In this document: piece after piece, positions 8,051 through 64,000 of the stretch
Numbering within the stretch: the first letter of the stretch is position 1
How the letters are laid out: every line of letters starts with the position of its first letter
Program-made: the position numbers and the translations under genes
Notes under the pieces: model-generated
Database searches by the model: none
Told to the model about the DNA's origin: nothing
The model's input: only the letters and a program-made list of their open reading frames with translations
Assembly (NCBI GenBank): GCA_016235345.1
Contig: JACRLG010000002.1
Coordinates: 220,965-284,964, forward strand
Length of the DNA stretch: 64,000 nucleotides
From: Deltaproteobacteria bacterium
GTDB taxonomy: Bacteria; Desulfobacterota; Desulfobacteria; Desulfobacterales; Desulfatibacillaceae
Direction: 5' to 3'

Positions 8051-8167
8051 GCCCGACTAAAAACGATGAAATGCAAGGAGAGCGAGAAGCCAATGAGCAA
8101 GCGTACCACAGGTACGTGGCGGAATTGGCTTTGACGCTCGACACAGCAGTTCGCGTTTTTAGACGGG
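8051..8167 (-). repeat. Structured intergenic element, copy f
   Basis: Reverse copy between selB and ahbD. GCCCGACTAAAAACG pairs with CGTTTTTAGACGGGC. The inner arm AAGCCAAT pairs with ATTGGCTT, and the apex arms are CGTACC and GGTACG. It ends 3 nt from the selB stop codon. It belongs to the same sub-type as copies i, l and q. Confidence 0.85.
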
Positions 8168-8170
8168 CGC

Positions 8171-10078
8171 TTACCCTGACCTTAACCTCCTGACATCGCC
8201 GACTCTCAGGGTCACCTTGGCCGAGTCGAACCATTCCAGGAGCGGAATGGCGTATTTACGCGACGCGTTGGTCATCTCCTTGAACTGCACCGGGGTCAGT
8301 TCCCCCTGGGCCTTTAAATGCGCAACCAGCCGGATTTTCAGATCATCCAGGGCGGCCCTCGTGAAATAAAGGTCCTCCTTCACCTTCACCAGGGCGTTTT
8401 CCTGGACCATGTGGGCCAGAATCCCCCTGGCGGTTTTCTCCGAAACCCCAAGGCCGTCCGTGAGCTCCTTGAAATAAGGCGGGGTGAGCCCGCCCTTTTC
8501 GTAGGCGTCTCGTATCTTCTTTTCAGCCGCCGCCTCGTCTTCCGCAAGGAAAACCGTGTACCCGGCAAGGCGCAGAAGGTCCTGGTCCGCCTCGATTTTT
8601 TTCGAGCCGGAAAGGCTTGCGATAAGGAGATGAAAGGTCTTGGGGCCGATGCGGTCGTCGAGCCTCGATTTCAGTTCCTCCTTGGGCATTCCGGTTTTGA
8701 GGGGGTTGGCGGCGTGGTAGGCCGAAAGGGCCGAAAGGGCGAGTTCCTCCAGGCGGGCCAGGGTTTCGGCGTGGATGAAGACCCGCGCCTCCTTGTCCAC
8801 CACCACCAGGGCCTTTTTGGAGAGGAGCTTTTCAACGGAGTCCTTGAGTTTTTTTCCGGCGAAGTTGGTGGCCACGGCAAGCTCGGCCTGGCTGATGCCC
8901 CCGAAATCCGACAGGCGCACGCAAAGTTCCGCAAGCGCTTCGCCTTCGGCCTCTGAAAGCTCGATGAGGCTTTCGGTGGTTCCGGGGCGGCCCCGCTTGC
9001 GCTTGGCCGGAAAGGGGTGCAGCACCCTGCCGCCGCCTATGGTGTGAACCGGAGAATAGGAGCGGATGACGAAGCGGTCGTCCCGTATGAGGGCCACGGG
9101 CTCGTCCAGCCTCATCTGGGCCGGGGCCTCCTGGCCCGGCAGAAGCTCGTCACAGCCGAAAAGCACCACCTTGCCCATTATCTCGCTGGAACCGGTGTGG
9201 AAGCGCACGCGGGCGCGGCTTTTGAGGGGACGGGCGGTTTTTAACAGGGAGAGCCACACGTCCACCATGCGGCTGTTCTTGAGGGTGTCGGGGGCCGCCA
9301 CCACGTCGCCGCGCTTTACCGCAGCCTTGTCCAGGCCCTGGAAATTGACCGCCGTGCGCATTCCGGCAAAAGATTCGGTCACGGAATCGTTGTGAACCTG
9401 CAGGCCCCTCACCTTGGAGCGCACTCCGGATGGGTACAGGGTCACCATGTCGCCCACCGCCGCGTGGCCGGAGGCCAGGGTCCCGGTGACCACCGTTCCG
9501 AAGCCGTGCATGGTGAAAACGCGGTCCACGGGAAGCCGGAAAATATTCGCCCCTGCGGCTTCGGCGACGTCCTTCACGATGTCGTCCAGAACCGCCTTCA
9601 ACTCGTCAAGGCCTGCGCCCGTGACCGACGACACGGGAACCAGGGGGGCGTCTTCAAGAAAGGTGCCGACAAGGGCTGTGCGGATGTCGTCCGACACCAT
9701 TTCCAGCCATTCCTCCTCCACCATGTCGCACTTGGTGAGGACCACCAGCCCCTTTTTCACGGCCAGAAGGGAGCAGATGTCCAGGTGCTCGCGGGTCTGG
9801 GGCATCACGCCCTCGTCCGCCGCGATCACAAGGGCCACCACGTCTATGCCCGTGGCTCCGGCCACCATGTTCTTCACGAATTTTTCATGGCCGGGCACGT
9901 CCACTATGCCGATGCGCTGGCCGGAGGGAAGGGCGAGGTGCGCGAAGCCAAGTTCTATGGTTATGCCGCGCGCCTTCTCCTCGGCCAGCCTGTCGCAGTC
10001 TATGCCCGTGAGCGCCCGCACAAGGCTTGTCTTGCCGTGGTCGATGTGGCCTGCGGTTCCCAGTACTATTCTTTTCAT
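8171..10078 (-). CDS. selB: Selenocysteine-specific elongation factor SelB
   Basis: This 635-residue GTPase delivers Sec-tRNA(Sec) to UGA codons on the ribosome. The G1 loop GHIDHGKT is at residues 10-17, GITIELGFA is the switch region, DVPGHE is G3 and TKCD is G4. EF-Tu-like domains II and III follow, then a C-terminal half of winged helices that bind the SECIS RNA hairpin. Length is typical. ATG 10078 is chosen because the protein then begins at KRIVLGTAGHIDHGK, with AGAAGG just upstream. It follows the cyclic-nucleotide-binding gene by 26 nt. Its presence implies that selenoproteins exist in this genome, which is relevant to the in-frame UGA gene at 61668-62006. selA, selC and selD are not in the window. 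Confidence 0.97.
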   Translation of the reverse strand: MKRIVLGTAGHIDHGKTSLVRALTGIDCDRLAEEKARGITIELGFAHLALPSGQRIGIVDVPGHEKFVKNMVAGATGIDVVALVIAADEGVMPQTREHLDICSLLAVKKGLVVLTKCDMVEEEWLEMVSDDIRTALVGTFLEDAPLVPVSSVTGAGLDELKAVLDDIVKDVAEAAGANIFRLPVDRVFTMHGFGTVVTGTLASGHAAVGDMVTLYPSGVRSKVRGLQVHNDSVTESFAGMRTAVNFQGLDKAAVKRGDVVAAPDTLKNSRMVDVWLSLLKTARPLKSRARVRFHTGSSEIMGKVVLFGCDELLPGQEAPAQMRLDEPVALIRDDRFVIRSYSPVHTIGGGRVLHPFPAKRKRGRPGTTESLIELSEAEGEALAELCVRLSDFGGISQAELAVATNFAGKKLKDSVEKLLSKKALVVVDKEARVFIHAETLARLEELALSALSAYHAANPLKTGMPKEELKSRLDDRIGPKTFHLLIASLSGSKKIEADQDLLRLAGYTVFLAEDEAAAEKKIRDAYEKGGLTPPYFKELTDGLGVSEKTARGILAHMVQENALVKVKEDLYFTRAALDDLKIRLVAHLKAQGELTPVQFKEMTNASRKYAIPLLEWFDSAKVTLRVGDVRRLRSG

Positions 10079-40691: not shown

Positions 40692-40809
40692 GCCTGGTTA
40701 AAAACGATGAAGCGCAAGGAGCGTGAAAAGCCAACGAGCAAGCGTACTAAATGTACGTGGCGGAGTTGGCTTTGAAACGCGACACAGCGATTCGCGTTTT
40801 TAGACGGGC
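40692..40809 (-). repeat. Structured intergenic element, copy q
   Basis: Reverse copy between the aminotransferase and hom, ending 1 nt before the aminotransferase stop. GCCTGGTTAAAAACG pairs with CGTTTTTAGACGGGC. The inner arm AAAGCCAAC pairs with GTTGGCTTT, and the apex is CGTAC TAAAT GTACG. Confidence 0.92.
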
Positions 40810-40810
40810 G

Positions 40811-41983
40811 CTATCCCTGGAGTACTTGTTTTATGCCGCGTATGGCCTGATTGGTCCTCATGCGGTTTTCGATGAGGGCGAAGCGCACGTAATCGTCGCC
40901 GTAGGCCCCGAAGCCAAGGCCCGGCGACACCGCCACCTTGGCCTCCTTTATCAGGAACTTGGAAAACTCCACCGAGCCCATTTTACGGAATTTTTCGGGA
41001 ATTTTCGCCCACACGAACATGGTTCCCTTGGGCGGGGTGATGGGCCAGCCAGCTCGGTTAAGGCCGTCGCAAAGGTCGTTCCGGCGGGTTTCGTAGGTTT
41101 TGCAGATTTCCGCAACACAGGCCTGGTCTTCGCGCAGGGCGATGATGGAGGCTATCTGAATGGGCTGGAAAACGCCGTAATCAAGATAGCTTTTTATGCG
41201 CCGCAAGGCAAAGATGATGTCCTTGTTCCCCACGCAGAAGCCCACGCGCCAGCCGGCCATGTTGTATGATTTGGACATGGAGAAAAACTCCACGCCAACG
41301 TCCTTGGCCCCCGGAACCTCCAGGAAGCTGGGGGCGCGGTAGCCGTCGAAGGTGATGTCCGCATAGGCAAGGTCGTGGATCACCATTATGTCGTGCTCTT
41401 TGGCGTAATCCACGATTTTCACGAAAAAGTCCCGGTCCACCACCTCGGTTGTGGGGTTGTGCGGATAGGAGAGGATGAGCACCTTGGGCTTGGGCCAGGT
41501 CTGCTTGGTGGCGGTCATCAGGTTCTCGAAAAAATCCTGGTCCGGCCCCACCGGGATGCCCCGCACGTCGCCGCCCGCGATGATTGCGGAATAGGGGTGG
41601 ATGGGATAGGTGGGCGTGGGGGTGAACACCACGTCGCCGGGCCTCACGGTCACCAGCACCAGGTGGCTTAAGCCCTCCTTGACGCCGATGGTGACGATGG
41701 CCTCCTGGTTGGGGTCGATGTCCACGTCGTAGCGGCGCTTGTACCACGCCGAAATCTGCTTCCTGAGGTTTGGTATGCCCATTGACGCCGAATAGCGGTG
41801 GTTGATGGGCCTCTGCGCCGCCTCGACCAATTTTGCAACTATATGGGGCGGGGTTCCCAGATCGGGATTGCCCATACCGAAATCGACGATGTCCTCGCCC
41901 CTGTGCCGGGCCTCCATTTTGAACTCGGTGACCTGTGCGAAAACGTAGGGGGGCAGCCTGTCCAGTCTTGCGAAATCTTTCAT
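40811..41983 (-). CDS. AlaC-like class I/II aminotransferase
   Basis: This 390-residue PLP enzyme has the Schiff-base Lys238 in [14 protein letters not shown], plus [12 protein letters not shown] and [12 protein letters not shown], which hold the cofactor ring, and a C-terminal Arg in [11 protein letters not shown] for the substrate carboxylate. The overall sequence is of the AlaC/YfdZ type, which makes alanine from pyruvate and glutamate and is often annotated as a partner of homoserine dehydrogenase. LL-diaminopimelate aminotransferase is a close relative and cannot be fully excluded. It is first in the run aminotransferase, hom, thrH, thioesterase. Confidence 0.88.
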
Positions 41984-51794: not shown

Positions 51795-51928
51795 AACTAT
51801 TCTCGGCAAGGCGATTTTTCCTGGGAGCGCGGGCGTCCCGCCCGCTTTTGCCGTTCACTGCGGGCGGGACGCCCGCGCTCCCAGGGTGAAAGTTCCCTGT
51901 TCATTTCACGGACAAGCTGAAAATTGTT
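51795..51928. repeat. GC-rich hairpin repeat, copy 2 (full length)
   Basis: The hairpin core CCTGGGAGCGCGGGC...GCCCGCGCTCCCAGG lies at 51820-51884, extended by GTTCCCTGTTCATTTCA and outer ends AACTATTCTCGGC and GCTGAAAATTGTT, which are imperfect inverted repeats. It matches the copy at 63861-63993 over its whole length. Confidence 0.85.
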
Positions 51929-51954
51929 AAGAGCCGCAAAAACAATTGATATTT

Positions 51955-52500
51955 TCAGGCCAGCCCCAGGGCGGCGATATTTTTTTCCACAAGGGCCGCC
52001 CGCTCGTGTTGGCCCGTTTTGCGGTAAAGCAAAAGCGCCTTCCGGTAATGACGATAAGCCCCCTGGGAATCGCCCGAAAGGGCCAGAATATAAGCTATGT
52101 TGGCGTGCTGGTCGGCGGCGTCCGCGTCCGCCCCGGCCTTGAGGAAAACCGAAAGGGCGCTGGCGTAGCACGGAAGGGCTTCGGAAAGCCTTTCCATGTC
52201 CCTGTAAACCGACCCCCGGTTGGCCTCCTGGCGGGCCGCGTTGACCGGGTCCCCGGCCCTTTTATAAAAGTCCCTGGCCCGGGTGAAGCAGGAGAGCGCA
52301 TCTTCCCGTTTTTCCAGGGAATTCAGAAGATGGCCGAGATTGTTTTCCAGGGCCGCACGGATATTTTCATCTTCTAACCCAAAATCGTTCAACAAATCAA
52401 GGGCTTTTGTGAAACAATTCACCGCCTCTACACGTCGGCCCCGTGAAAGGAGGCGTCCGCCGCCTCGATTGAGGGCCGCGACCTTGACCGCCGGGTCCAT
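51955..52500 (-). CDS. TPR-repeat protein
   Basis: This 181-residue soluble protein is built of about four tetratricopeptide repeats (RVEAVNCFTKALDLLNDFGL; EDALSCFTRARDFYKRAGDP; SEALPCYASALSVFLKAGAD; GAYRHYRKALLLYRKTGQHE). No signal peptide is seen. ATG 52500 lies 2 nt after the stop codon of the enoyl-CoA hydratase gene (TGACAATG), so it is translationally coupled. Its role is presumably as a protein-interaction module; no partner can be named. Confidence 0.85.
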   Translation of the reverse strand: MDPAVKVAALNRGGGRLLSRGRRVEAVNCFTKALDLLNDFGLEDENIRAALENNLGHLLNSLEKREDALSCFTRARDFYKRAGDPVNAARQEANRGSVYRDMERLSEALPCYASALSVFLKAGADADAADQHANIAYILALSGDSQGAYRHYRKALLLYRKTGQHERAALVEKNIAALGLA

Positions 52501-53444: not shown

Positions 53445-54410
53445 CTACCCGAAAGCTGAAAAACTCCGGGCGATGACTGCCACGCCCGAAACCAGCTCGT
53501 CCATGATTTCGGCAACGGATTTCACCGAGCCGATGAGGCCCGCTATCTGGCCGCAGGGCATGACGGCGGTGTCGCGGTCCCCGCCCTGCATCACGTAGGC
53601 GGCGTCGCCGGATGAAACCATGGCGCTGTCGGCCTCGTTTGAGGCAAGGCCCGCCACTATGGCCGTCACCTTGTTTTTGAGAACCCTTATGGGCATGGCC
53701 TCCTTGCCCAAAAGAAGGGTGGCGTCGCAGTCGGCGCACACGAGGCCATCTTTAAAAAAGCCCGGAACCGGCGATTCCGCGCTGGCCACGAAGCGGGTGC
53801 CCATCTCCACTCCTGCGGCACCAAGGGCGAATGCGGCGGCGATCCCACGGGCGTCCGCGATTCCTCCCGCCGCGATGACCGGAATCCTCACCGCGTCCAC
53901 AACCTGGGGCACAAGGCACATGGTGGTGATGTTTTCCCGGCCCACGTGCCCGCCGGCCTCGAAACCCATGGCGATGACGGCGTCAACCCCCGCGTCCTCG
54001 GCCTTCTTGGCCAGCTTCACCGAGCTTGCCTTGTGAATCACGGTGAGATTGCCGCTTCTGGCCAGGCTCATGATCTTGGCCGGGTTTCCGGCTGACGTGG
54101 TGATGGTTTTGATTCCCGATTCAATGGCGATCTCAATGGCCTCGAAGGCGTTTTCACGATAAACCGGCACGTTGATGCCAAAGGGCTTGTCCGTGAGAGC
54201 CTTGGCCTTTGCGATCTCGGCCCTAAGCTCCGGGCCGGAAAGGCCGGATGCGCCAATCTGGCCGAAGCCGCCCGCGTTGGAAACCGCCGCCGCCATTTCG
54301 CCCATGGTGATCATGCGCATGGGCCCCAAAATTATGGGATAGCGGACCCCGAGGATTTCGGAGACCCTGGTGGCCCAGCCGGGGCCCTTGTCAGCCGTTA
54401 AGTCTCGCAC
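53445..54410 (-). CDS. NMO/2-nitropropane dioxygenase-family flavoprotein
   Basis: This 321-residue FMN TIM-barrel protein has YPIILGPMRMITMGEMAAAV, INVPVYRENAFEAI, AMGFEAGGHVGRENITT with the family His, and PVIAAGGIADARGIAAAFALGA with the phosphate-binding glycines. Relatives oxidise nitronates or reduce enoyl thioesters (FabK-like). The acyl-CoA neighbourhood favours an enoyl-reductase-like role, but this is open. The GTG start at 54410 has AAGGA 7 nt upstream and overlaps the ligase gene by 20 nt, so the two are coupled. Confidence 0.87.
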   Translation of the reverse strand: MRDLTADKGPGWATRVSEILGVRYPIILGPMRMITMGEMAAAVSNAGGFGQIGASGLSGPELRAEIAKAKALTDKPFGINVPVYRENAFEAIEIAIESGIKTITTSAGNPAKIMSLARSGNLTVIHKASSVKLAKKAEDAGVDAVIAMGFEAGGHVGRENITTMCLVPQVVDAVRIPVIAAGGIADARGIAAAFALGAAGVEMGTRFVASAESPVPGFFKDGLVCADCDATLLLGKEAMPIRVLKNKVTAIVAGLASNEADSAMVSSGDAAYVMQGGDRDTAVMPCGQIAGLIGSVKSVAEIMDELVSGVAVIARSFSAFG

Positions 54411-55959
54411 CGTATTTTTCCTTCAGCTCGGATTTCTTCACCTTCATGGTGGCGGTGAGGGGAAGCTCCGCCACGAACTCGAAGCGCGTGGGGTGCTTGT
54501 ACTTGGCGACCTTGCCCTGAAGATACTCCACTATCTCCTCTTTGGTTATCTCCTGGCCGGGCATGGGCAGGATGAAGGCCATGCCGGTTTCCCCCCACTT
54601 GTCGTCGGGAACGCCGATTATGGCGACGTTCTGCACCTTCGGGTGGCCGGAGATCACCTTCTCCACCTCTGCCGGATACACGTTTTCGCCGCCCGAACGG
54701 TACATGTCCTTGGCCCGGTCCACGATGTAGAGAAAGCCCTCCTCGTCCTTGTAGCCAAGGTCGCCGGTGTGGAGAATCCCGTCGGTGATGGTGCGGCGGG
54801 TGGCTTCCGGCAGGTTCCAGTAGCCGCTCATCACGGTCGGCCCCTTGGCCAGGATGTCGCCGATCTCGCCGGGGGGAAGCTCGTTTCCGTTCTTGTCGCC
54901 CACCCAGACGTGGGTGAAAAATCCGGATTTGCCGATGCTTCCCATCTTGCGCTGGATGTCCGCCTTGGGCATTAAAGTCATGGCCGAGCACTCGGTCTGG
55001 CCGAAGCCCTGCTGCATGTAAAGGCCGCGCTTGGCAAGCTCGTCGAAAAGCGATGGGGGGGTACGCTCGCCGCCGCCCAAGACGGTGTGGACCGAGGACA
55101 CGTCTATCTGGTCAAGTTTCCCGGTGGCCAGGATGAAGCGCCACATGGTGGTGAGGGCCAGAACGATGGTGGCCCGGTAGCGCTGGATATCTTCCGCGAA
55201 CTCGTCCGGGTTGAAGTTGCGGCGCATGATGAGCGTTATGCCGCCGAAGATGGAGGGCGTGGCCACGATGAAGAGGCCTCCGGAATGGAAGAGCGGCATC
55301 TGGGCCACCATCACCTGGTCGCCGCCCGCGTCCTCGGAGGTGTAGAGGGCGGTCTGGAAGCACTTGAAAAAGGTCTGGCCGTGGGACAGCACCGCGCCCT
55401 TGGGGTTTCCGGTGACGCCCGACGTGTAGACGATGGCGAGCGGATCGTCCATCTCCACGGGGGTGTCGGGCCTGGGCTCCGCCGCCTGCCTGCCGTTCAG
55501 CTTGTCGTGGTAGTCCTCGGCCCAGGCCGGGCAGGTGGGCTGGCCGGGGTTGCCGCTTTTGGCGAAGACGAACTTGTCCTCCTCCACCGTAAGCCGCCCC
55601 TTTATGCCGTCCACCGAACCTAAGAAGGAGTCGTGGAAAACGATGAGGCGGGCGGCGCAGTCGTTTATCTGGTACTCAAGCTCAGGCCCCACCAGCCGCC
55701 AGTTGAGCGGCACGAAAACCACCCCCAGTTTCGCCGCCCCGAAGTAGAGCTCCAGAAACTCGATGCAATTGAGCATCAAAACCGCCATTCGGTCGCCCTT
55801 CTTGAGGCCCTTTTTCTGGAGATAATGGGCGCAGCGGTTGGCCCCCTCGTTCAGGGCCCTGTAGGTGACCGGCTCGTCCTCGAAGATGATGGCTGTCTTT
55901 TCCGGGTGCTGCACGGCCCTCTTGTAAATAATGTAACCCACGTCCCATTGAACGCCCAT
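54391..55959 (-). CDS. Long-chain fatty acid/acyl-CoA ligase
   Basis: This 522-residue ANL enzyme starts at ATG 55959 after AAGGAGATTTATC; the open frame reaches 56430 but that part overlaps the sirtuin gene and is not coding. The P-loop is VYTSGVTGNPKGAVLSHG, A5 is QQGFGQTECSAMT, and GILHTGDLGYKDEEGFLYIV with DRAKDMYRSGGENVYPAEVE forms the hinge and C-terminal core. LPLTATMKVKKSEL carries the catalytic Lys region. It activates carboxylic acids to CoA thioesters for the adjacent hydratase and flavoprotein. It is a probable target of the nearby deacylase. Confidence 0.94.
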   Translation of the reverse strand: MGVQWDVGYIIYKRAVQHPEKTAIIFEDEPVTYRALNEGANRCAHYLQKKGLKKGDRMAVLMLNCIEFLELYFGAAKLGVVFVPLNWRLVGPELEYQINDCAARLIVFHDSFLGSVDGIKGRLTVEEDKFVFAKSGNPGQPTCPAWAEDYHDKLNGRQAAEPRPDTPVEMDDPLAIVYTSGVTGNPKGAVLSHGQTFFKCFQTALYTSEDAGGDQVMVAQMPLFHSGGLFIVATPSIFGGITLIMRRNFNPDEFAEDIQRYRATIVLALTTMWRFILATGKLDQIDVSSVHTVLGGGERTPPSLFDELAKRGLYMQQGFGQTECSAMTLMPKADIQRKMGSIGKSGFFTHVWVGDKNGNELPPGEIGDILAKGPTVMSGYWNLPEATRRTITDGILHTGDLGYKDEEGFLYIVDRAKDMYRSGGENVYPAEVEKVISGHPKVQNVAIIGVPDDKWGETGMAFILPMPGQEITKEEIVEYLQGKVAKYKHPTRFEFVAELPLTATMKVKKSELKEKYGARLNG

Positions 55960-56018
55960 GATAAATCTCCTTTCGTGAATCCAAGGCCCGGTTCCGGCCT
56001 GTTGCGTTTCAACTGTTT

Positions 56019-56810
56019 TCAGCCCGTCATGAGTTTCAAGAGCGCCGGGAGCGCCTGGGCTGACCTTTCCCGTATCACGGCGTCCGCGATATTGGTGAGG
56101 GCGCTTTCGCCGGGGTTGATCTCGACGATGAGCGCCCCGCGCTCCCTTGCCCGAAGCGGAAGCGAGGCCGCAGGATGCACCAGCCCGCTCGTTCCGCAGA
56201 CAAGCATAAAGCCGCAGTTTTCCGCAAGAGTTACGGCTTCGCTTAGGTCCTGCACCGCTTCCCCGAAGCCGACGAAATCGGGCCTTAAGATTCCGTGGCA
56301 GGCCATGCAGCGCGGAAGCTCCCCCAAAAGTGCGGAAAGGCCGGTTCCCGAAGCCTTTGCCGCAAGCCTTTCCGCGACCTCGAAGAACTCGTCCCTCTGC
56401 GGTCTCTCCTTTTTCCCGCAGCTCATGCACCGCACTCTCATCACGTTTCCGTGAAGCTCGTAAACGACCCTGCTTCCTGCCCGGTTGTGCAGGTCGTCCA
56501 CGTTCTGGGTGATGATGCCTCTTATGAATCCGGCCTTCTCCATCTCCGCAAGGGCCGTATGGCCCGGATTGGGAAGCGCCCTTTTGAGGGAGCCGAAGAA
56601 ATCCCCCAGAATCTGGGAGGCCTTTTCAGGGTACGCTGCGAGAACCCCCAGCATTCCGCCGGACGCGCCCTTGGGGTGGGTGTCCCATAGGCCCCCCTTG
56701 TCCCGGTAGGTTGAGATGCCGGATTCCGCCGACACCCCGCTTCCGGTGAGGGCCGCCCCGGCGGGCAGCGACTTGAGCTTCATGGCCAGTTTTTCGAGGT
56801 CCGTGATCAT
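56019..56810 (-). CDS. Sir2-family NAD-dependent protein deacylase
   Basis: This 263-residue sirtuin has LTGSGVSAESGISTYRD (NAD loop, Ser in place of the usual Ala of GAG), TQNVDDLH, the catalytic His120 in YELHGNVM, and zinc ligands Cys128, Cys131, Cys168 and Cys171. CGTSGLVHPAASLP and VEINPGESALT complete the fold. It removes acyl groups from lysines, using NAD. CobB-type sirtuins reactivate acyl-CoA synthetases by deacylation, and the gene lies next to one, so regulation of that enzyme is likely. GGAG precedes ATG 56810. Confidence 0.93.
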   Translation of the reverse strand: MITDLEKLAMKLKSLPAGAALTGSGVSAESGISTYRDKGGLWDTHPKGASGGMLGVLAAYPEKASQILGDFFGSLKRALPNPGHTALAEMEKAGFIRGIITQNVDDLHNRAGSRVVYELHGNVMRVRCMSCGKKERPQRDEFFEVAERLAAKASGTGLSALLGELPRCMACHGILRPDFVGFGEAVQDLSEAVTLAENCGFMLVCGTSGLVHPAASLPLRARERGALIVEINPGESALTNIADAVIRERSAQALPALLKLMTG

Positions 56811-56849: not shown

Positions 56850-57647
56850 CTACCTGCCTTTGAAGTTGGGCTTCCTCTTTTCCATAAAGGCCATCTGGCC
56901 TTCCCGCAAATCCTCGCTGGCAAAGCCCTCGGCCTGGAGAAGCTCGGCGGCGGCCTTGTCCTCGGCAGAAAGGGAGATTGATTTTTCCAGCATGTTCAAA
57001 ATCTTCTTGGTGTTCCTTAAGGATATGGGCGCGTTTGAAGCGATTTCCGCTGCCATCGCGTCCACAAAGGGGAAAAGCTCCTCCTTGGGCACAACATGGT
57101 TCACGAGGCCCATTTCAAATGCTTCCTGGGCCGTAAAATTTCTGGCCGTGAAGAAAAGCTCGCGGGTTGGGGCCATGCCCGCAGCCTGGATGAATTCCAC
57201 AAGCCCCGCCGGATGGTAGACGAGGCCCAGTTTCGCGGGGGGCATGCCGACCTTGGCTTCCCGGCAGGCGATGCGCATGTCGCAGCACATGGAAAGGTTC
57301 AGGCCCGCGCCGAAGGCGTAGCCGTTCCAGGCCGCGATAGTGGGGTACGGGAAGTTTTTCAGGGATGAGAACGCAAGCTCCAGTGGGTTGTGATTCTTGA
57401 TGAGTTCCTCCATTTCAGGGCTTACCTGTGTGGGGATGGAGGCTATGTCATAGCCGGACGAAAAGGCCTTGCCCTGGCCTCCTGTTATCACCACGCAGCG
57501 CACGGCCCCGTCTTGCGCCCATTTTTCCAGCAGAAGATGCAGGGTAAAGAGCATATCCGTGGAAAGAGCGTTGCGGCGCTCCGGCCTGTTGAAGGTGATG
57601 GTGCCCACGTAGTCCTTTACCGATTCCAAAATCGCATCTTCCGCCAT
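56850..57647 (-). CDS. Enoyl-CoA hydratase/isomerase family protein (2)
   Basis: This 265-residue crotonase-fold protein has ITFNRPERRNALSTDM, the oxyanion segment GKAFSSGYDIASIP, and AWNGYAFGAGLNLSMCCDMR. MPPAKLGLVYHPAGLVEF has no Glu at the classical catalytic position, so hydratase activity is uncertain. ATG 57647 is preferred because GGAAGG lies 9 nt upstream; an ATG at 57656 overlaps the FKBP stop codon. It belongs to the same block as the ligase and the sirtuin. Confidence 0.87.
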   Translation of the reverse strand: MAEDAILESVKDYVGTITFNRPERRNALSTDMLFTLHLLLEKWAQDGAVRCVVITGGQGKAFSSGYDIASIPTQVSPEMEELIKNHNPLELAFSSLKNFPYPTIAAWNGYAFGAGLNLSMCCDMRIACREAKVGMPPAKLGLVYHPAGLVEFIQAAGMAPTRELFFTARNFTAQEAFEMGLVNHVVPKEELFPFVDAMAAEIASNAPISLRNTKKILNMLEKSISLSAEDKAAAELLQAEGFASEDLREGQMAFMEKRKPNFKGR

Positions 57648-57652
57648 CTTGT

Positions 57653-58120
57653 TCATCCTTCCATAATCGGATTTATTGCGGCGGGTTCCCGATTGACCGG
57701 CTCCACCGCTATCACCCTTATGTCGTAGGTCAGGGTCTTTCCGGCCCAGGGGTGGTTGGGGTCCAGGATCACACGGTCCCCCACGAAACCCAGAACCGTG
57801 AAGACCTCCCGTTCCCCGGTGTCCGAAAGCCTGGAAAAAAGCTCGCCCCGCGCCGTTGGCGGCGTGGGAAGCTCCCCGGCCTTTATCCTTATCACCGCAT
57901 CTTCCCGGCGTTCGCCGAAGGCCTTTCCGGGGGCAAGCGTCACGTTTTTCGCGTCCCCGTCCGAAAGCCCGGCCAGGGCGGCGGTAAGCCCCCTTGGAAA
58001 CCTTTTGTCCCCGAAGGCGAACTTCACCGGGCTTTTCAGATAAATGTCATCCAGAACCTCGCCCGTTTCGTCCCGAACAGCGTAGGTCATGGTGACGATT
58101 GTTCCGGGACCTATGAGCAT
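57653..58120 (-). CDS. FKBP-type (SlyD-like) peptidyl-prolyl isomerase
   Basis: This 155-residue protein has the FKBP/SlyD layout: IVTMTYAVRDETGEVLDD, the insert-in-flap region FGERREDAVIRI, and DPNHPWAGKTLTYDIRVI, the NHPLAGK-like signature. There is no His-rich metal tail. It would speed Xaa-Pro isomerisation and bind unfolded chains in the cytoplasm. ATG 58120 follows GGGGACTCA. The stop codon is just upstream of the hydratase start. Confidence 0.92.
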   Translation of the reverse strand: MLIGPGTIVTMTYAVRDETGEVLDDIYLKSPVKFAFGDKRFPRGLTAALAGLSDGDAKNVTLAPGKAFGERREDAVIRIKAGELPTPPTARGELFSRLSDTGEREVFTVLGFVGDRVILDPNHPWAGKTLTYDIRVIAVEPVNREPAAINPIMEG

Positions 58121-58162
58121 TGAGTCCCCATTATAAGGGCGAACGGAAAACAGGGCTGCATT

Positions 58163-58228
58163 CCTGGGAGCGCGGGCGTCCCGCCCGCTTTTGCCGCACA
58201 CAGCGGGCGGGACGCCCGCGCTCCCAGG
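58163..58228. repeat. GC-rich hairpin repeat, copy 3 (core only)
   Basis: CCTGGGAGCGCGGGCGTCCCG and the matching CGGGACGCCCGCGCTCCCAGG form a 21-bp arm pair, read around a CCGCTTTTGCCGCACACAGCGG centre. It lies between the PNPOx and FKBP genes. The flanks do not match those of copies 2 and 4. Confidence 0.88.
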
Positions 58229-58239
58229 TTGATGCCCCG

Positions 58240-58650
58240 TTAAATTCCCTGCCCAAAGTCTAAGATCGGCCTGGCTGACAGAATATTGAACTCCACGTAA
58301 TGCTTCAGGATATCCGCGCCGCGCCCGATGCGCTCCCGAATTGGACCTAAGAGGGCGTCAAATTTTTCACCCTCGTCGGAGGTGTCGCGCAGTTTGAGAT
58401 AGAGGCGGCAGCCCTTCATGCCCATGCCGACTCCGCCGTGCATCATGACCAAAAGGGCCGCGTTGGGGTTTTCCTTCAAATTGCCCCAGGTGCGGTTGTC
58501 GCCCAGCATCATCATGATGGTGTCGTCGTTTTGAAGGGTGGGGGAGCCGAAGGCCGCAACGTTCACTTCTCCATCCCTGCCGCTTGTGGCCAGTACGTTG
58601 GTGCGCTCCCTGGTGGCGAAAAATTCCTTCACAGCGTCACTTACCTGCAT
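58240..58650 (-). CDS. Pyridoxamine 5'-phosphate oxidase-like flavin protein
   Basis: This 136-residue split-barrel protein (VLATSGRDGEVNVAAFGSP; LGDNRTWGNLKENPNAALLV) is of the PNPOx-like FMN-binding class. The family includes oxidases, reductases and cofactor-binding proteins, and the substrate is unknown. ATG 58650 has GGGAGAAAA upstream and overlaps the VWA gene end by 14 nt, so it is the third gene of a coupled MoxR-VWA-PNPOx operon. Confidence 0.83.
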   Translation of the reverse strand: MQVSDAVKEFFATRERTNVLATSGRDGEVNVAAFGSPTLQNDDTIMMMLGDNRTWGNLKENPNAALLVMMHGGVGMGMKGCRLYLKLRDTSDEGEKFDALLGPIRERIGRGADILKHYVEFNILSARPILDFGQGI

Positions 58651-60433
58651 TTTTCTCCCCCTCCCGCTTTTGATTATCAATCGGATCAAACCATTTTTTA
58701 AACGCAGGATCCTCCCCCATGCGGCGCTTGTCGCCGTACAGGAAGGTCCACTTCAGAAGTTTTTCCACGGCGGCCGGAAGCTGGCCGAAGCTGGTTATGA
58801 ACTGGATGGTCTTGCCGTATTGCTTTATCATGAGTTGTTTGTCGGGAACCCCCACCCCAAGGGTCACGAGGTGGATTTTTTCGCGGCGGCAATAGGCTAT
58901 GGCGGTTTCCACGTCAACGCCGAAGTTGCTTTCCCCGTCGGTGACGTGAATCAGAAGTTTCCTTCTGGCGTCTTTGGGCATGTAAAAGCCCGCCGCGATT
59001 ATGGCCTGGCCGGATGCGGTCTGGCCTGAGGGCGGCACGCTCATGAGTTTCCCGCCCGAATAAAGGCTTGAAATCATGGCGATTCCGTCCATCTCGAAAT
59101 AGGCGTAAACAGACAGGTTGTTCTTGAACCCGGTCAGGGCCCTGGCGAGGTTTCCCACGGTGTTTTCCACCATGCGCCACTTGCCGCCCCGCATGGAGCC
59201 GGTGGCGTCCAGAAGGAGCGTCACGTTCCAGTCAAGGTCCGGGAGGCTCCCGGTCTGGGTGAAGCATTTTCCCGAAATGGGAGCCCGGTACAGGCGGCGC
59301 TTGTCCACCTTGCCGCTGGTGAGCCCCCGGGTCACCACCTTTTGCCGCGCCGCGTAATCCGTGAAGATGGCCTTGACGCGCCCCACCATGCGCCGGTCCA
59401 CCACGGGGTGGGCCGGGATGTTGTAGTCCCACCGGCTCATGGGGGCGACATCCGGGTTATCGAGGCCCGCCACGTTGCGAATTAACGGTGTTATGTCCGC
59501 CGAACCCAAAGCAAGCCGGGTCTCGATTTCATGCACGAGGCCGGACGTCAGAACCGCCTTTGGGGGGATGTCGTCCAGCCTGCGCTTTTGTTCGACTTTT
59601 TTGGGAAGATAATCGTCGTCCTCGTCCCACCACACAAGCCTTCGGTCCAGCACCGTAAGCCTCGCGCAGATGGCCCCCACGTTTTCCCAGGCGGCCTTGT
59701 AGAGCTCGGCCCTCTGGGCGCAGCGGCTGACAACAGACGGTTCCAGATCGGGAAGCCTTTCCAGGGCTTCGGTGAGTCCCCTCAAAAAAAACATGGGCGG
59801 CTCGTAGACCGGTTCCAAAAGGCGCTCCACGTTCTTGGTCCAGGTGGACATCCACCACAGGTACACAAGGGCGTCCATTGTAAGGATTTCGCTTCTGAGC
59901 TTGGCCGCCATTTCCGCAAGAGCCCGGCCACGGGTCTTTGCAACGTAGCGGCCAAGGACCGAGCGGTCAGCAAGGCGGTCAACGTAGATGTCCTCGCCGG
60001 TCTGGACGATCTTCTGGAACATCACCCGGTGAATGCCGGAGAGCGTCTTGAAGTACGGGCCAAGGCTCTTCCATACCCGCTCGGTCCACTCGGTTTTGAG
60101 CATGGCCTCGTGGGTGACCAGGCCCACCAGGTAGTCCATGCGGTTGCCCGGCACCGGGTACTCGCCCATTATCATGGCCGGGTCCACCACGATGGAGGCC
60201 GCGTCCCCGTGGCTCATGCCAAGGTACTCCACCCGGCCCGTGTTGGGCCCGATGGAGCCGGTGATCTTCCTAAGCGCCCTCAGCACGTTGGCCAGTTCCG
60301 TGGGCTCGGATACAGACACGTTCTTGCGCCAGAAGGGCGAGAGGGCCTCGGCCCCGGCGCTTGAAGGCGGGGGCGGCGGGGCGGCGTCCTCCGCCCTGGC
60401 GAAAACAAGGGGTGTGGGGCCCATGCAGTCCAT
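58637..60433 (-). CDS. VWA-domain protein, partner of a MoxR-type ATPase
   Basis: This 598-residue cytoplasmic protein ends in a von Willebrand A domain. The MIDAS motif is WNVTLLLDATGSMRGG, followed by YAYFEMDGIAMISSLYSGGK and LLIHVTDGESNFG with the third MIDAS Asp. The N-terminal 350 residues are helical and unrecognised. Its ATG follows the ATPase stop codon directly (TAAATG), with translation probably coupled. MoxR/VWA pairs act as chaperone machines that load metals or cofactors into client enzymes, as for CbbQ/CbbO and NorQ/NorD. The size and order resemble those pairs, but the client is not next to them. Confidence 0.86.
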   Translation of the reverse strand: MDCMGPTPLVFARAEDAAPPPPPSSAGAEALSPFWRKNVSVSEPTELANVLRALRKITGSIGPNTGRVEYLGMSHGDAASIVVDPAMIMGEYPVPGNRMDYLVGLVTHEAMLKTEWTERVWKSLGPYFKTLSGIHRVMFQKIVQTGEDIYVDRLADRSVLGRYVAKTRGRALAEMAAKLRSEILTMDALVYLWWMSTWTKNVERLLEPVYEPPMFFLRGLTEALERLPDLEPSVVSRCAQRAELYKAAWENVGAICARLTVLDRRLVWWDEDDDYLPKKVEQKRRLDDIPPKAVLTSGLVHEIETRLALGSADITPLIRNVAGLDNPDVAPMSRWDYNIPAHPVVDRRMVGRVKAIFTDYAARQKVVTRGLTSGKVDKRRLYRAPISGKCFTQTGSLPDLDWNVTLLLDATGSMRGGKWRMVENTVGNLARALTGFKNNLSVYAYFEMDGIAMISSLYSGGKLMSVPPSGQTASGQAIIAAGFYMPKDARRKLLIHVTDGESNFGVDVETAIAYCRREKIHLVTLGVGVPDKQLMIKQYGKTIQFITSFGQLPAAVEKLLKWTFLYGDKRRMGEDPAFKKWFDPIDNQKREGEKNAGK

Positions 60434-61282
60434 TTAATACGATCTGTACCTTCCCTGGTCGGAAGCCTCGGTCTGTCCGGTCTTGAGATGAAGGGAAAGA
60501 AGCACCGATTCCAGCGCGTCCTTTGAAACCTGGAGCGAGAATACGAAGGCGTCACGAACGCTCGCCCCCACCGCCACCATCTCGGCGATCATCAGCGTAT
60601 GGCGCGTGGAGACCACGATGGGCTCCTGGGTGTTGCGCCGAAGCTGGTTGGACACCGTCACTATGGTTTCCGCGTCCTTGCGGGAGACGCCGGTTTTGAG
60701 ATGCAGAACGTCGGCCTCCACGTCCTTGGGGAGATAGTCCAGGAGGGTGACGTAGAAACGGTCCCGGAGCGCTGCGTCCAGCATCTCGGTTCCCACGAAT
60801 TCCTCGCCCTCGTTCAAGGTGGCGAAAAAAACCACGCCGGGGGCGACCTTCAAAAGGCCAAGCTCGTCCAGGTAAACCTGCCGGTCCTGGGAGAGCACCG
60901 AAAAAAGCATGTTGAGCGCCTTGGGGTGTTCGGGCCGGTTGATTTCCTCTAAGTGAATCACGCAGCCGGGGGTCTGGATGGCTTCGGGAAAGAGGAATTT
61001 CTGAAAATAGGTCTCGCCGTCCTTCAAGCGGTGCTCGCCGAAAAGCTGGCCCGGCTCCGAGAGGATGCCTATCTGGAAGGTGGCCAGGGGCCGCTTGTTG
61101 CGGGCCGCGAACTGGCGCACCATGGTGGATTTTCCGCAACCCTGCTTTCCGGCCACAAGCACGTTCACCGGGTGGCGGTCGGAGAGCTTTTTCACGAGGG
61201 TCATGTTTTCAATGACCTCGCCCGGAAGGAAATAATGGGGCTCAGGCGCGGGAATGGCCAGGCCGCACGCGTTTTCGTTCAT
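60434..61282 (-). CDS. MoxR/CbbQ-type AAA+ ATPase
   Basis: This 282-residue AAA+ protein has Walker A VAGKQGCGKST, Walker B PGCVIHLEEINRP, sensor 1 FFATLNEGEEF and arginine-finger region DAALRDRFYVTLLDYLP. ATG 61282 has AAGGGAGAG upstream; the longer frame to 61453 is not supported. With the adjacent VWA protein it should form a hexameric remodelling complex. The 385-bp upstream region has TGACCCA repeats that may control the operon. Confidence 0.92.
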   Translation of the reverse strand: MNENACGLAIPAPEPHYFLPGEVIENMTLVKKLSDRHPVNVLVAGKQGCGKSTMVRQFAARNKRPLATFQIGILSEPGQLFGEHRLKDGETYFQKFLFPEAIQTPGCVIHLEEINRPEHPKALNMLFSVLSQDRQVYLDELGLLKVAPGVVFFATLNEGEEFVGTEMLDAALRDRFYVTLLDYLPKDVEADVLHLKTGVSRKDAETIVTVSNQLRRNTQEPIVVSTRHTLMIAEMVAVGASVRDAFVFSLQVSKDALESVLLSLHLKTGQTEASDQGRYRSY

Positions 61283-61503
61283 GACTCTCCCTTGAAAGCA
61301 AGTGAGGATTTCCTTGATTGTCAAAGCCTTGGCGTTTTCAATCCGCCGTAATAAAAAGCGTATCCGCCGTTTTATTCCGCAAGGATGGTGCCAAGAAGGA
61401 CCGGGCGGGAAATAAATATTCAAGACCTTGATTTTAATTGAATTGTTAAGCAAGAAACACGTTACGGGGATGGGCGGGGAATTTTAGGGCCTTAAACGGA
61501 AAA

Positions 61504-61667: not shown

Positions 61668-62006
61668 TCAGAAAAAAAGTTCCCTCTGGCGCTCTTTTAT
61701 GAAGGCGTTCAGTTCCTTTATGTTCCAGCGCTGGTTCATGGACCGGAGCTTGGCGATCACCCGCCTCGCCTCCTCCAGCTTTTTCATGTCGGATGTCTTC
61801 TCGAAGTCCTTCAATTCCTGGCAGAGCCCCTGCATCTCGATGTGTTCCTCCTCAAGGCCCTCGGCCCGGCTCAACAGGACGCGCGCCCCGCAACGGGGGC
61901 ACTCGCGGAGATCGCTCTCTCCGCAAGCCGGTCAGCCGGACGCGCAAAGGTACTTGAATTCCAGGTAATCGCTCTTGAAGCCGCACTTCTGGCATTTCAG
62001 ATCCAT
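61668..62006 (-). CDS. Candidate selenoprotein: zinc-ribbon/UPAC redox protein with in-frame UGA
   Basis: ATG 62006 with AAGGAGG ahead opens MDLKCQKCGFKSDYLEFKYL, then CASG, then UGA at 61934-61932 (codon 25), then PACGESDLRECPRCGARV in the same frame, to a stop at 61668. Full length is 112 residues. Reading UGA as Sec gives UPAC (25-28) paired with CPRC (36-39), exactly where a zinc ribbon or CxxC redox pair would have Cys. The tail is a charged helix (LEEEHIEMQG onward) ending in FIKERQRELFF. A hairpin follows the UGA by four bases and SelB is encoded at 8171. Alternatives are a nonsense mutation or sequencing error from TGC. Function: probably a thiol or selenol redox protein. Confidence 0.78.
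61902..61927 (-). promoter_or_regulatory. Predicted bacterial SECIS hairpin
   Basis: On the minus strand, CTTGCGGAGA pairs with TCTCCGCGAG (ten pairs, one U-G) around loop GAGCGA. The stem begins four bases after the UGA codon, and a G opens the loop. Position and size match bacterial SECIS elements read by SelB. Confidence 0.65.
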
Positions 62007-62030
62007 GAGTTCCTCCTTGAAAAGGTAAGC

Positions 62031-62162
62031 GCCCGTCCAAAAACGCGAATCGCTGTGTCAGGCTTCACGGCGCGGGTCGTCATGTACGAAAAGTACTACT
62101 CCTCCCCGCGCCGCTCGCCAACCTTCGCGCTTCATCGCGTTTATAAAAATTGATATCCAGGC
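62031..62162 (+). repeat. Structured intergenic element, copy t
   Basis: Forward copy just upstream of the candidate selenoprotein gene. It has GCCCGTCCAAAAACGCG at the left and TATAAAAATTGATATCCAGGC at the right. GGCGCGGG pairs with CCCGCGCC, and the apex is GTACGAAAAGTAC. The right end is nearly the same as that of copy d. Confidence 0.85.
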
Positions 62163-63840: not shown

Positions 63841-63860
63841 AAAACCGTTTCGTGGCTATT

Positions 63861-63993
63861 AACTGTTTTCAGCGGGGGGATTTTCCTGGGAGCGCGGGCG
63901 TCCCGCCCGCATTGTGCTGCAAAAGCGGGCTGGACGCCCGCGCTCCCAGGGGAAAAGTTCCCTGTTCATTTCAAGGGCAAGCTGAAAATTGTT
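63861..63993. repeat. GC-rich hairpin repeat, copy 4 (full length)
   Basis: Full copy with outer ends AACTGTTTTCAGC and GCTGAAAATTGTT (near-perfect inverted repeats), core CCTGGGAGCGCGGGCGTCC...CGCCCGCGCTCCCAGG, and the GTTCCCTGTTCATTTCA segment shared with copy 2. Confidence 0.9.
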
Positions 63994-64000
63994 GAGAGGC

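Follow-up and report, generated by a model that had tools for sequence, protein, structure and literature searches.

A small gene on the minus strand of the DNA analysed here, a 64,000-nucleotide stretch of a Desulfatibacillaceae genome (referred to as the window), very probably encodes a 112-residue selenoprotein of the (1-methylalkyl)succinate synthase (MASS) gene set. MASS is the glycyl radical system that adds n-alkanes to fumarate. We gave the gene, located at 61668-62006, the working name SEP. An original prediction, made from the window alone, had proposed a selenoprotein at this position. That reading is supported by the exchange of UGA and Cys codons among homologues, by hairpins after the UGA that withstood a check on held-out genes, and by the selenocysteine (Sec) machinery present in the same genome. 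Ordinary gene calling would truncate the protein at residue 24.

The SEP gene and its in-frame UGA

Re-reading of the sequence confirmed the predicted start and frame of the gene. The start codon is the ATG at 62006 on the minus strand, located 3′ of a strong Shine-Dalgarno sequence, AAGGAGGA, which we read at 62011-62018 on the same strand. The sense frame (62006-61671, minus strand) contains a single internal TGA, at codon 25 (61932-61934), and is closed after 112 codons by a terminal TGA at 61670-61668. The translation begins with MDLKCQKCGFKSDYLEFKYLCASGUPACGESDLRECPRCGARV and continues up to residue 112. The two predicted motifs, UPAC and CPRC, are both present, here as UPACG and CPRCG. 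Judged from the sequence comparisons below, Sec would be inserted at UGA25.

Two kinds of dispersed repeats were also seen in the window. A 34-base repeat occurs at 8142-8175 (+), 40783-40816 (+) and 62024-62057 (−) with 0-2 mismatches, at a chance expectation of 0; one of the copies extends into the end of selB, and another is found immediately 5′ of SEP. In addition, open reading frames at approximately 51797-52171, 58120-58263 (on both strands) and 63859-63999 have a common translation, WERGRPAR...RAGRPRSQ, and look like a dispersed palindromic repeat and not like genes.

UGA and cysteine exchange among SEP homologues

The original prediction had suggested a search for homologues with Cys or UGA at position 25. 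Among 44 distinct full-length homologues both were found, exactly in the codon-25 column: TGA in 32 genes and TGC or TGT in the remaining 12. In the first homologue set a gene was considered full length when its tblastn score exceeded 90 bits. Five full-length loci identical to others, as well as L104, which equals L009, were removed before counting; L095 is the gene of L004, and the distant matches L002, L010, L011, L012, L014-L018 and L044-L053 are kept outside the 44. The UGA copies come from genomes with 16 different family labels. In a tree of the first 29 SEP genes, whose bootstrap was not fully settled, four changes between Sec and Cys explain the distribution most simply, and the well-supported branches force at least two. 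One gene, L008 (G035:C100:44849-45184), contains, in addition to its Sec TGA, a TAA located a few codons ahead of the normal end, which would reflect either a slightly shorter protein or a sequence error. It was left out of two alignments (A1 and A2) and retained in the DNA counts and the tree.

With the window's own genome counted in each case, SEP matches of some kind were detected in 11 of 59 relatives, in 19 of 395 genomes of the phylum (18 full length, and G003 with a delta-like match only) and, at E 1e-15, in 23 of 389 genomes of the order. One scan of genome contigs gave 10 SEP loci, all of them with Cys. The own genome carries one SEP copy with an internal TGA and one weak match resembling the delta subunit of MASS. 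A search of plasmids and phages returned no SEP homologue at E 0.01.

Four cysteines, C5, C8, C36 and C39, are present in all 44 homologues. Residue 28 is Cys in 12/12 Cys copies and in 23/32 Sec copies, including that of the window; in the other nine Sec copies it is Thr, and three of these nine have Cys24 and not Gly24. C21 is absent from three of the 32 Sec copies, and L043 lacks both C21 and C28. As the partner cysteine varies in Sec copies only, it appears to be dispensable only where Sec is present. The loss of C28 in 9/32 Sec copies and 0/12 Cys copies fits selenol chemistry and not a metal ligand.

Among the distant matches, L045-L047 (genomes G186, G362 and G398; 15-kb neighbourhoods L087-L089) encode a further ribbon protein, shorter than SEP, in which a TGA lies in frame between two CxxC knuckles (GGUHTVGS). 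Their neighbourhoods gave no match to MasD, beta or delta. This protein is possibly another undescribed selenoprotein related to SEP.

Hairpins downstream of the UGA

Two hairpins follow the UGA. Hairpin 1 (61902-61927, minus strand) is a perfect 10-bp stem in the window, with a 7-bp conserved core; it begins four bases past the UGA and carries the loop GAGCGA, with G first. Hairpin 2 (61885-61900, minus strand) has the loop CGUUGC, 36 nt after the UGA. The bacterial SECIS model, as given in PMC13188914, has a loop of 3-9 nt with G in one of the first two positions, located 16-37 nt from the UGA for most elements. The predicted 10-bp hairpin with a G-first loop is present as described, but its loop, at 14 nt from the UGA, falls 2 nt below the published range, whereas hairpin 2 fits the model.

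We compared pairing between 18 UGA genes and 11 Cys genes. The hairpin 1 core is paired in 112 of 126 cells of the UGA genes versus 48 of 77 cells of the Cys genes. The outer pair of hairpin 2 (columns 39/51) joins two third codon positions; it is kept in 18/18 UGA genes (CG in 7, UA in 6 and UG in 5) versus 3/11 Cys genes. RNAalifold predicted both hairpins from the UGA set alone and found neither in the Cys set. Counting both hairpins, 92.2% of cells are paired in the UGA set and 66.4% in the Cys set. Covariation in the UGA set was 0.235 versus a shuffled mean of 0.140 (0/500 shuffles), and the true register beat all slides on both pairing and covariation. One of the five measures, the number of further pair types, showed no excess in the UGA set (371/500 shuffles). 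The Cys set displayed no excess of pairing or covariation over shuffles. The structure was derived from the UGA set itself, and the held-out test described below weighs more than these pair counts.

As a control for coding constraint, the protein was held fixed and the codons were varied. The hairpin 1 region of the window is more stable than 1000/1000 such synonymous re-codings (z −4.7). The mean z for this region was −2.43 in UGA genes (13/18 below 0.05) and +0.31 in Cys genes (0/11), a difference with a one-sided p-value of 8.8e-6. The same comparison for the hairpin 2 region resulted in −1.43 (12/18 significant) and +0.02 (0/11), with a p-value of 0.006, while UGA and Cys genes did not differ in two control regions (p 0.37 and 0.26).

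For the held-out test, the hairpin registers were fixed before the order search, which provided 14 new UGA genes. In these genes, which are partly close to the first set (L098 shares its genus label with L007, and L096 its family label with L008), hairpin 1 was paired in 94 of 98 cells and significant in 14/14 genes. Hairpin 2 was paired in 42/42 cells and energy-significant in only 6/14 genes; the control regions were significant in 2/14 and 0/14 genes. The exceptions to the pattern are L034-L036, which lack the hairpin 1 register, and L042, which is weak. An Rfam search returned two chance matches and no SECIS match.

We did not accept hairpin 1 as the sole SECIS element, since the spacing of hairpin 2 agrees with the published one and this hairpin, too, distinguishes UGA from Cys genes. 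Hairpins 1 and 2 are presumed to form the SECIS region jointly; hairpin 2 is the better fit to the consensus and hairpin 1 gives the stronger statistical signal.

Selenocysteine machinery

SelB, the elongation factor that reads a UGA followed by a SECIS, is encoded in the window at 8171-10078 on the minus strand, as predicted, with a match to TIGR00475 at E 1.2e-107 (361 bits, cut-off 242). An absence of selA, selC or selD from the genome had been named as evidence that would speak against the selenoprotein. The genome contains SelA on contig 10, a tRNA-Sec with the anticodon UCA on contig 23, and SelD on contig 7, whose own in-frame TGA serves as an internal control.

Among 26 genomes tested, 24 have SelB over the curated cut-off (all except G001 and G243) and 24 have tRNA-Sec over the cut-off (all except G054 and G417). 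G243, with no SelB over the cut-off, and G054 and G417, with no tRNA-Sec over it, all carry UGA copies of SEP, and the missing matches count mildly against the Sec reading; these three genomes are drafts, and only part of the tRNA candidates were scored. The Cys-form genomes G005, G008, G187, G324 and G343 all possess both SelB and tRNA-Sec. Machinery loss therefore does not explain the Cys forms, and Sec in SEP is not required wherever it could be made. At three places (G056:C52, G057:C1 near 1779 kb, and G266:C245) we also noticed a second SelB-family gene adjoining a tRNA-Sec-like gene.

SEP in the MASS gene set

Downstream of SEP, and like it on the minus strand, the window encodes an AAA+ ATPase (AAA_5, CbbQ_C; 60434-61348; PF07728, 8.5e-19) and a VWA-domain protein (58637-60433; PF00092, 3e-8), which we call BssE-like and BssF-like by position and partner only. 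The start of the AAA+ gene was set at an ATG, the longest frame beginning at a TTG at 61453. These are followed by a PNPOx-like protein of the conserved set (58240-58689; PF01243, 1.3e-7), an FKBP-type prolyl isomerase found in some loci (57653-58201; PF00254, 4.2e-8), the enoyl-CoA hydratase-like protein of the set (56850-57656; PF00378, 3.8e-52) and a Sir2-family protein (56019-56810; PF02146, 2.3e-36). Further on lie the acyl-CoA ligase of the set (54391-56040; PF00501, 2.2e-83; cluster F5), which by its position we take to be AssF-like, and a nitronate monooxygenase-like protein that occurs in some loci (53445-54410; PF03060, 5.1e-59; cluster F30). Much of this gene order recurs at other SEP loci.

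We examined the context of 29 loci, 18 with Sec (the window included) and 11 with Cys. An AAA+ gene lies directly 3′ of SEP in 26 of them (Sec 15/18, Cys 11/11); the gene is absent from L057 and L073, and the L070 sequence stops at this point. The VWA gene follows the AAA+ gene in 23/29 loci, and L068, L069 and L071 have the AAA+ gene without it. Genes of the mas cluster are found 5′ of SEP in 23/29 loci (Sec 12/18, Cys 11/11). Four of the six Sec loci without upstream mas genes end within 300 bases, and the window and L073 have none in reach. The usual place of SEP is thus between the MASS genes and the BssE/BssF-like AAA+/VWA pair. The genes upstream of SEP encode a methylmalonyl-CoA mutase, a PrpD-like protein, one or two radical-SAM activases (TIGR02494), an 834-residue glycyl radical enzyme and two small proteins. 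Compared with the MASS structure 9O8U, the MasD of Desulfatibacillum alkenivorans matches chain A with 1485 bits, and its MasB and MasE match beta and delta at 1.8e-30 and 3.5e-26, respectively. The window's SEP does not adjoin MASS subunit genes, which sit on other contigs of the genome: contig 1 carries the mas half of the set, including two MasD genes, and contig 15 a third MasD gene.

Of the 395 phylum genomes, apparently the same set in the SEP and MasD searches, 16 carry both full-length SEP and MasD (E below 1e-200), two carry SEP only (G098 and G186, which have no strong MasD match), three carry MasD only (G003, G287 and G418) and 374 carry neither. The co-occurrence has a Fisher p-value of 1e-23, with kinship ignored. 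On the basis of gene order and co-occurrence we assign SEP to the MASS gene set, and it is this context that gives the protein its meaning.

Two distant homologues with TGA, L010 (G057) and L011 (G044), whose neighbourhoods are L074 and L075, lie upstream of a divergent VWA gene, and L011 stands directly after an activase-like gene. No MasD was found in the stretch examined around them. The SEP family may serve other radical systems too.

Predicted fold and relation to MASS delta

An AlphaFold2 model built with 28 SEP sequences (mean pLDDT 85.8, pTM 0.64) shows short strands up to residue 46 and helices at residues 47-66, 74-94 and 97-111. A helical tail had been predicted, and the model places three helices after the head. 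The Sec loop, residues 21-30, is the least certain block of the model, at 64.

In a profile search the SEP family matched PDB 9O8U chain D, the delta subunit of MASS (MasE), at E 0.0015 with four cysteines in register: C5, C8, C36 and C39 of SEP align on C3, C6, C32 and C35 of delta. A designed protein outscored this match (E 0.0004) via the helical tail. VIA-align superimposed chain D at an rmsd of 1.8 over 46 residues with 28% identity (rank 24), and its Z of 4.4 is within the range of unrelated, helical matches; Foldseek against the PDB gave nothing below E 0.001. For the link to delta we relied on the cysteine alignment and the gene context more than on Z. The weak profile and structure matches, taken together with the gene context, make a delta paralogue the likeliest origin, and the SEP head (the first 44 residues) is probably a distant paralogue of MASS delta.

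Delta and SEP share the four-cysteine head and belong to the same gene set, with the delta gene just before SEP in several loci. SEP differs by an inserted Sec/Cys25 loop and a 65-residue helical tail, and delta has no Sec. Delta has 71 residues in 9O8U and SEP has 112, and SEP does not match the tail type and length of delta, whose tail of about 20 residues contacts the glycyl radical domain (PMC12358834). Moreover, true delta genes are present besides SEP as separate genes, which indicates that SEP is not delta itself. Two mas clusters, L085 (G000 contig 1) and L092 (G008), contain a further rubredoxin-like small gene besides delta, located between the PrpD-like and activase genes.

The alignment with delta also bears on the place of Sec. 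According to PMC12358834, delta carries a single Fe in the MASS structure and sits where the activase must bind, and the rationale of its rubredoxin-like fold is called enigmatic. The original prediction had Sec replacing a cysteine of a CxxC pair, with four more ribbon cysteines. The four cysteines are indeed invariant, but by the 9O8U alignment they would form a rubredoxin-like head. UPAC does not form a metal-site pair: Sec25 and C28 lie in the loop between the knuckles, and Sec25 aligns with delta Ile23 (counted along the alignment), outside the metal site. We ruled out Sec as a metal-site ligand, since C5, C8, C36 and C39 never vary and align with the Fe-binding cysteines of 9O8U chain D, whereas C28 differs among the Sec copies.

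Comparison with known families

The protein had also been described as zinc-ribbon-like. A CxxC...CxxC site is present in the head, which looks rubredoxin-like, but membership of a zinc-ribbon family was rejected: no scored Pfam or NCBIfam match reached its cut-off, and the best E-values of further scans were 4.4e-6 and 0.0014. The window's SEP has no match in NCBIfam (June 2026) at E 0.01. When 28 SEP members were scanned, three gave E-values of 0.01 or lower with NF049953 (zinc ribbon-containing (seleno)protein DG), the best being 4.4e-6, and two of the scores are 16.1 and 15.9 bits versus a cut-off of 130 bits. A genome search with NF049953 gave no match in G000 and none over the cut-off in 15 genomes. 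NF049953 corresponds to hypothetical protein DG of deep-Sep (PMC12013277). Like SEP it is a selenoprotein family with a G-U motif, and the matched stretch takes in Sec and CPxCG. The motif listed for NF049953 is GUxG, whereas SEP has GUPAC. The match starts at position 7 of 172 and leaves the first CxxC knuckle of SEP without an equivalent in the aligned portion.

The table of the 2026 catalogue, which covers 119 families (PMC13188914), lists no family with the motif or context of SEP. The description of the protein as undescribed thus holds in both the NCBIfam scan and this catalogue. Our literature search, which covered mostly open-access papers and their main texts, found no paper joining alkylsuccinate synthase and selenoproteins; a single genome paper contained both terms. 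A single deltaproteobacterium is reported to have 34 putative selenoproteins (PMC8318568).

AAA+ and VWA genes beside an X-succinate synthase are also a feature of benzylsuccinate synthase clusters, where they are named bssE and bssF. In PMC7285207 the function of these genes in toluene clusters is described as uncertain, and the gene order bssDCABEF given there names no SEP-like gene. The window's pair is likened to BssE/BssF by position and partner. Thioredoxin- and glutaredoxin-type selenoproteins (UxxC, UxxT) resemble SEP in having Cys or Thr three residues after Sec. No thioredoxin-type family or fold was listed among the Pfam, NCBIfam and structure matches of SEP, whose predicted secondary structure has short strands up to residue 46 and then three helices, and the Cys at +3 is not general in SEP, as it is found in 23 of 32 Sec copies.

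Proposed role and alternative explanations

We propose that SelB, directed by the hairpins after codon 25, would insert Sec at UGA25, and that SEP would be an accessory redox factor that, in concert with the neighbouring BssE/BssF-like AAA+/VWA pair, acts on the MASS complex or on the enzyme that activates it. The head could dock at the delta site, close to both the glycyl radical domain and the place of the activase, and the helical tail could bind the AAA+/VWA machine. The selenol would then supply rapid thiol/selenol or one-electron reactions for assembly, activation or repair of the radical enzyme. We consider a role in assembly or activation about evenly balanced between true and false; the docking site of the head, the partner of the tail and the reaction of Sec are inferred. 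Sec copies tolerate either Cys or Thr at residue 28, which favours the selenol itself as the carrier of the chemistry. A more specific version, in which the Sec loop on a delta-like head, delivered by the AAA+/VWA pair, gives an electron or H atom to arm, protect or reset the MASS radical, is tentative and on balance doubtful.

In PMC12358834 the mas cluster of strain HxN1 is described as masA-masG, with no AAA+/VWA or SEP-like gene, and mas genes form alkylsuccinates in E. coli. Together these two reports argue for SEP as a helper in assembly, activation or repair more than as an obligate subunit, and it may be unneeded for the alkylsuccinate chemistry itself. If the more specific version, with the Sec loop acting on the MASS radical, is true, anaerobic alkane oxidation by fumarate addition would be selenium-dependent in many Desulfobacterota and the Cys forms would be a slower substitute. 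The place of SEP in the MASS gene set suggests that anaerobic alkane attack draws on selenium in many of the bacteria that use it, and SEP would predict a dependence of oil degradation on this element. SEP would also be an additional protein in a widely distributed pathway for activating alkanes anaerobically, provide the rubredoxin-like delta subunit with a probable paralogue that carries a chemically telling residue, and be a possible partner of the AAA+/VWA proteins found in X-succinate synthase clusters.

The same selenoprotein might instead be an electron carrier, a rubredoxin-like donor to the activase [4Fe-4S] cluster in which Sec tunes or gates the transfer. We regard this as possible but rather unlikely, as Sec25 is not a metal ligand by alignment, the usual neighbour of SEP is the AAA+ gene or the AAA+/VWA pair and not an electron-transfer protein, and rubredoxins are not known to need Sec. 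In its favour, the SEP-like L011 follows an activase-like gene directly, and delta, whose position overlaps that of the activase, has been suggested to take part in reducing the activase cluster (PMC12358834).

Less likely still, SEP could be a general anaerobic protein for thiol or peroxide chemistry or metal handling that merely travels with the alkane genes. Its UxxC/UxxT motif does resemble thiol redox selenoproteins, a thiol redox function is presumed for many selenoproteins (PMC13188914), and G098 and G186 carry SEP in genomes that lack a strong MasD match. The tight co-occurrence with MasD and the recurrent place of SEP in the mas gene order, for the Cys copies too, argue against this reading and for the accessory factor of the MASS system.

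We rejected the explanation that the UGA is a real stop, leaving a pseudogene or two short proteins, as highly improbable, although a TTG start downstream opens a frame at 61668-61874. The UGA recurs at one and the same column in 32 distinct genes, whose genomes bear 16 different family labels, and is replaced by Cys in 12 others, the hairpins are present in UGA copies and missing in Cys copies, and C36 and C39, needed for the metal site, come after the UGA. Furthermore, in ten close pairs of UGA-bearing genes third codon positions account for 77 of 136 differences before the UGA and for 262 of 446 after codon 46, a similar bias that indicates coding on both sides. Reading of the UGA as another residue, by Trp insertion or suppression, is weaker again and was likewise rejected: the open frame is all that favours it, the residue is Cys in 12/12 non-UGA homologues, several SEP genes, the window's among them, end in TGA, and the genome has the Sec machinery and a SelD that also contains an internal UGA.
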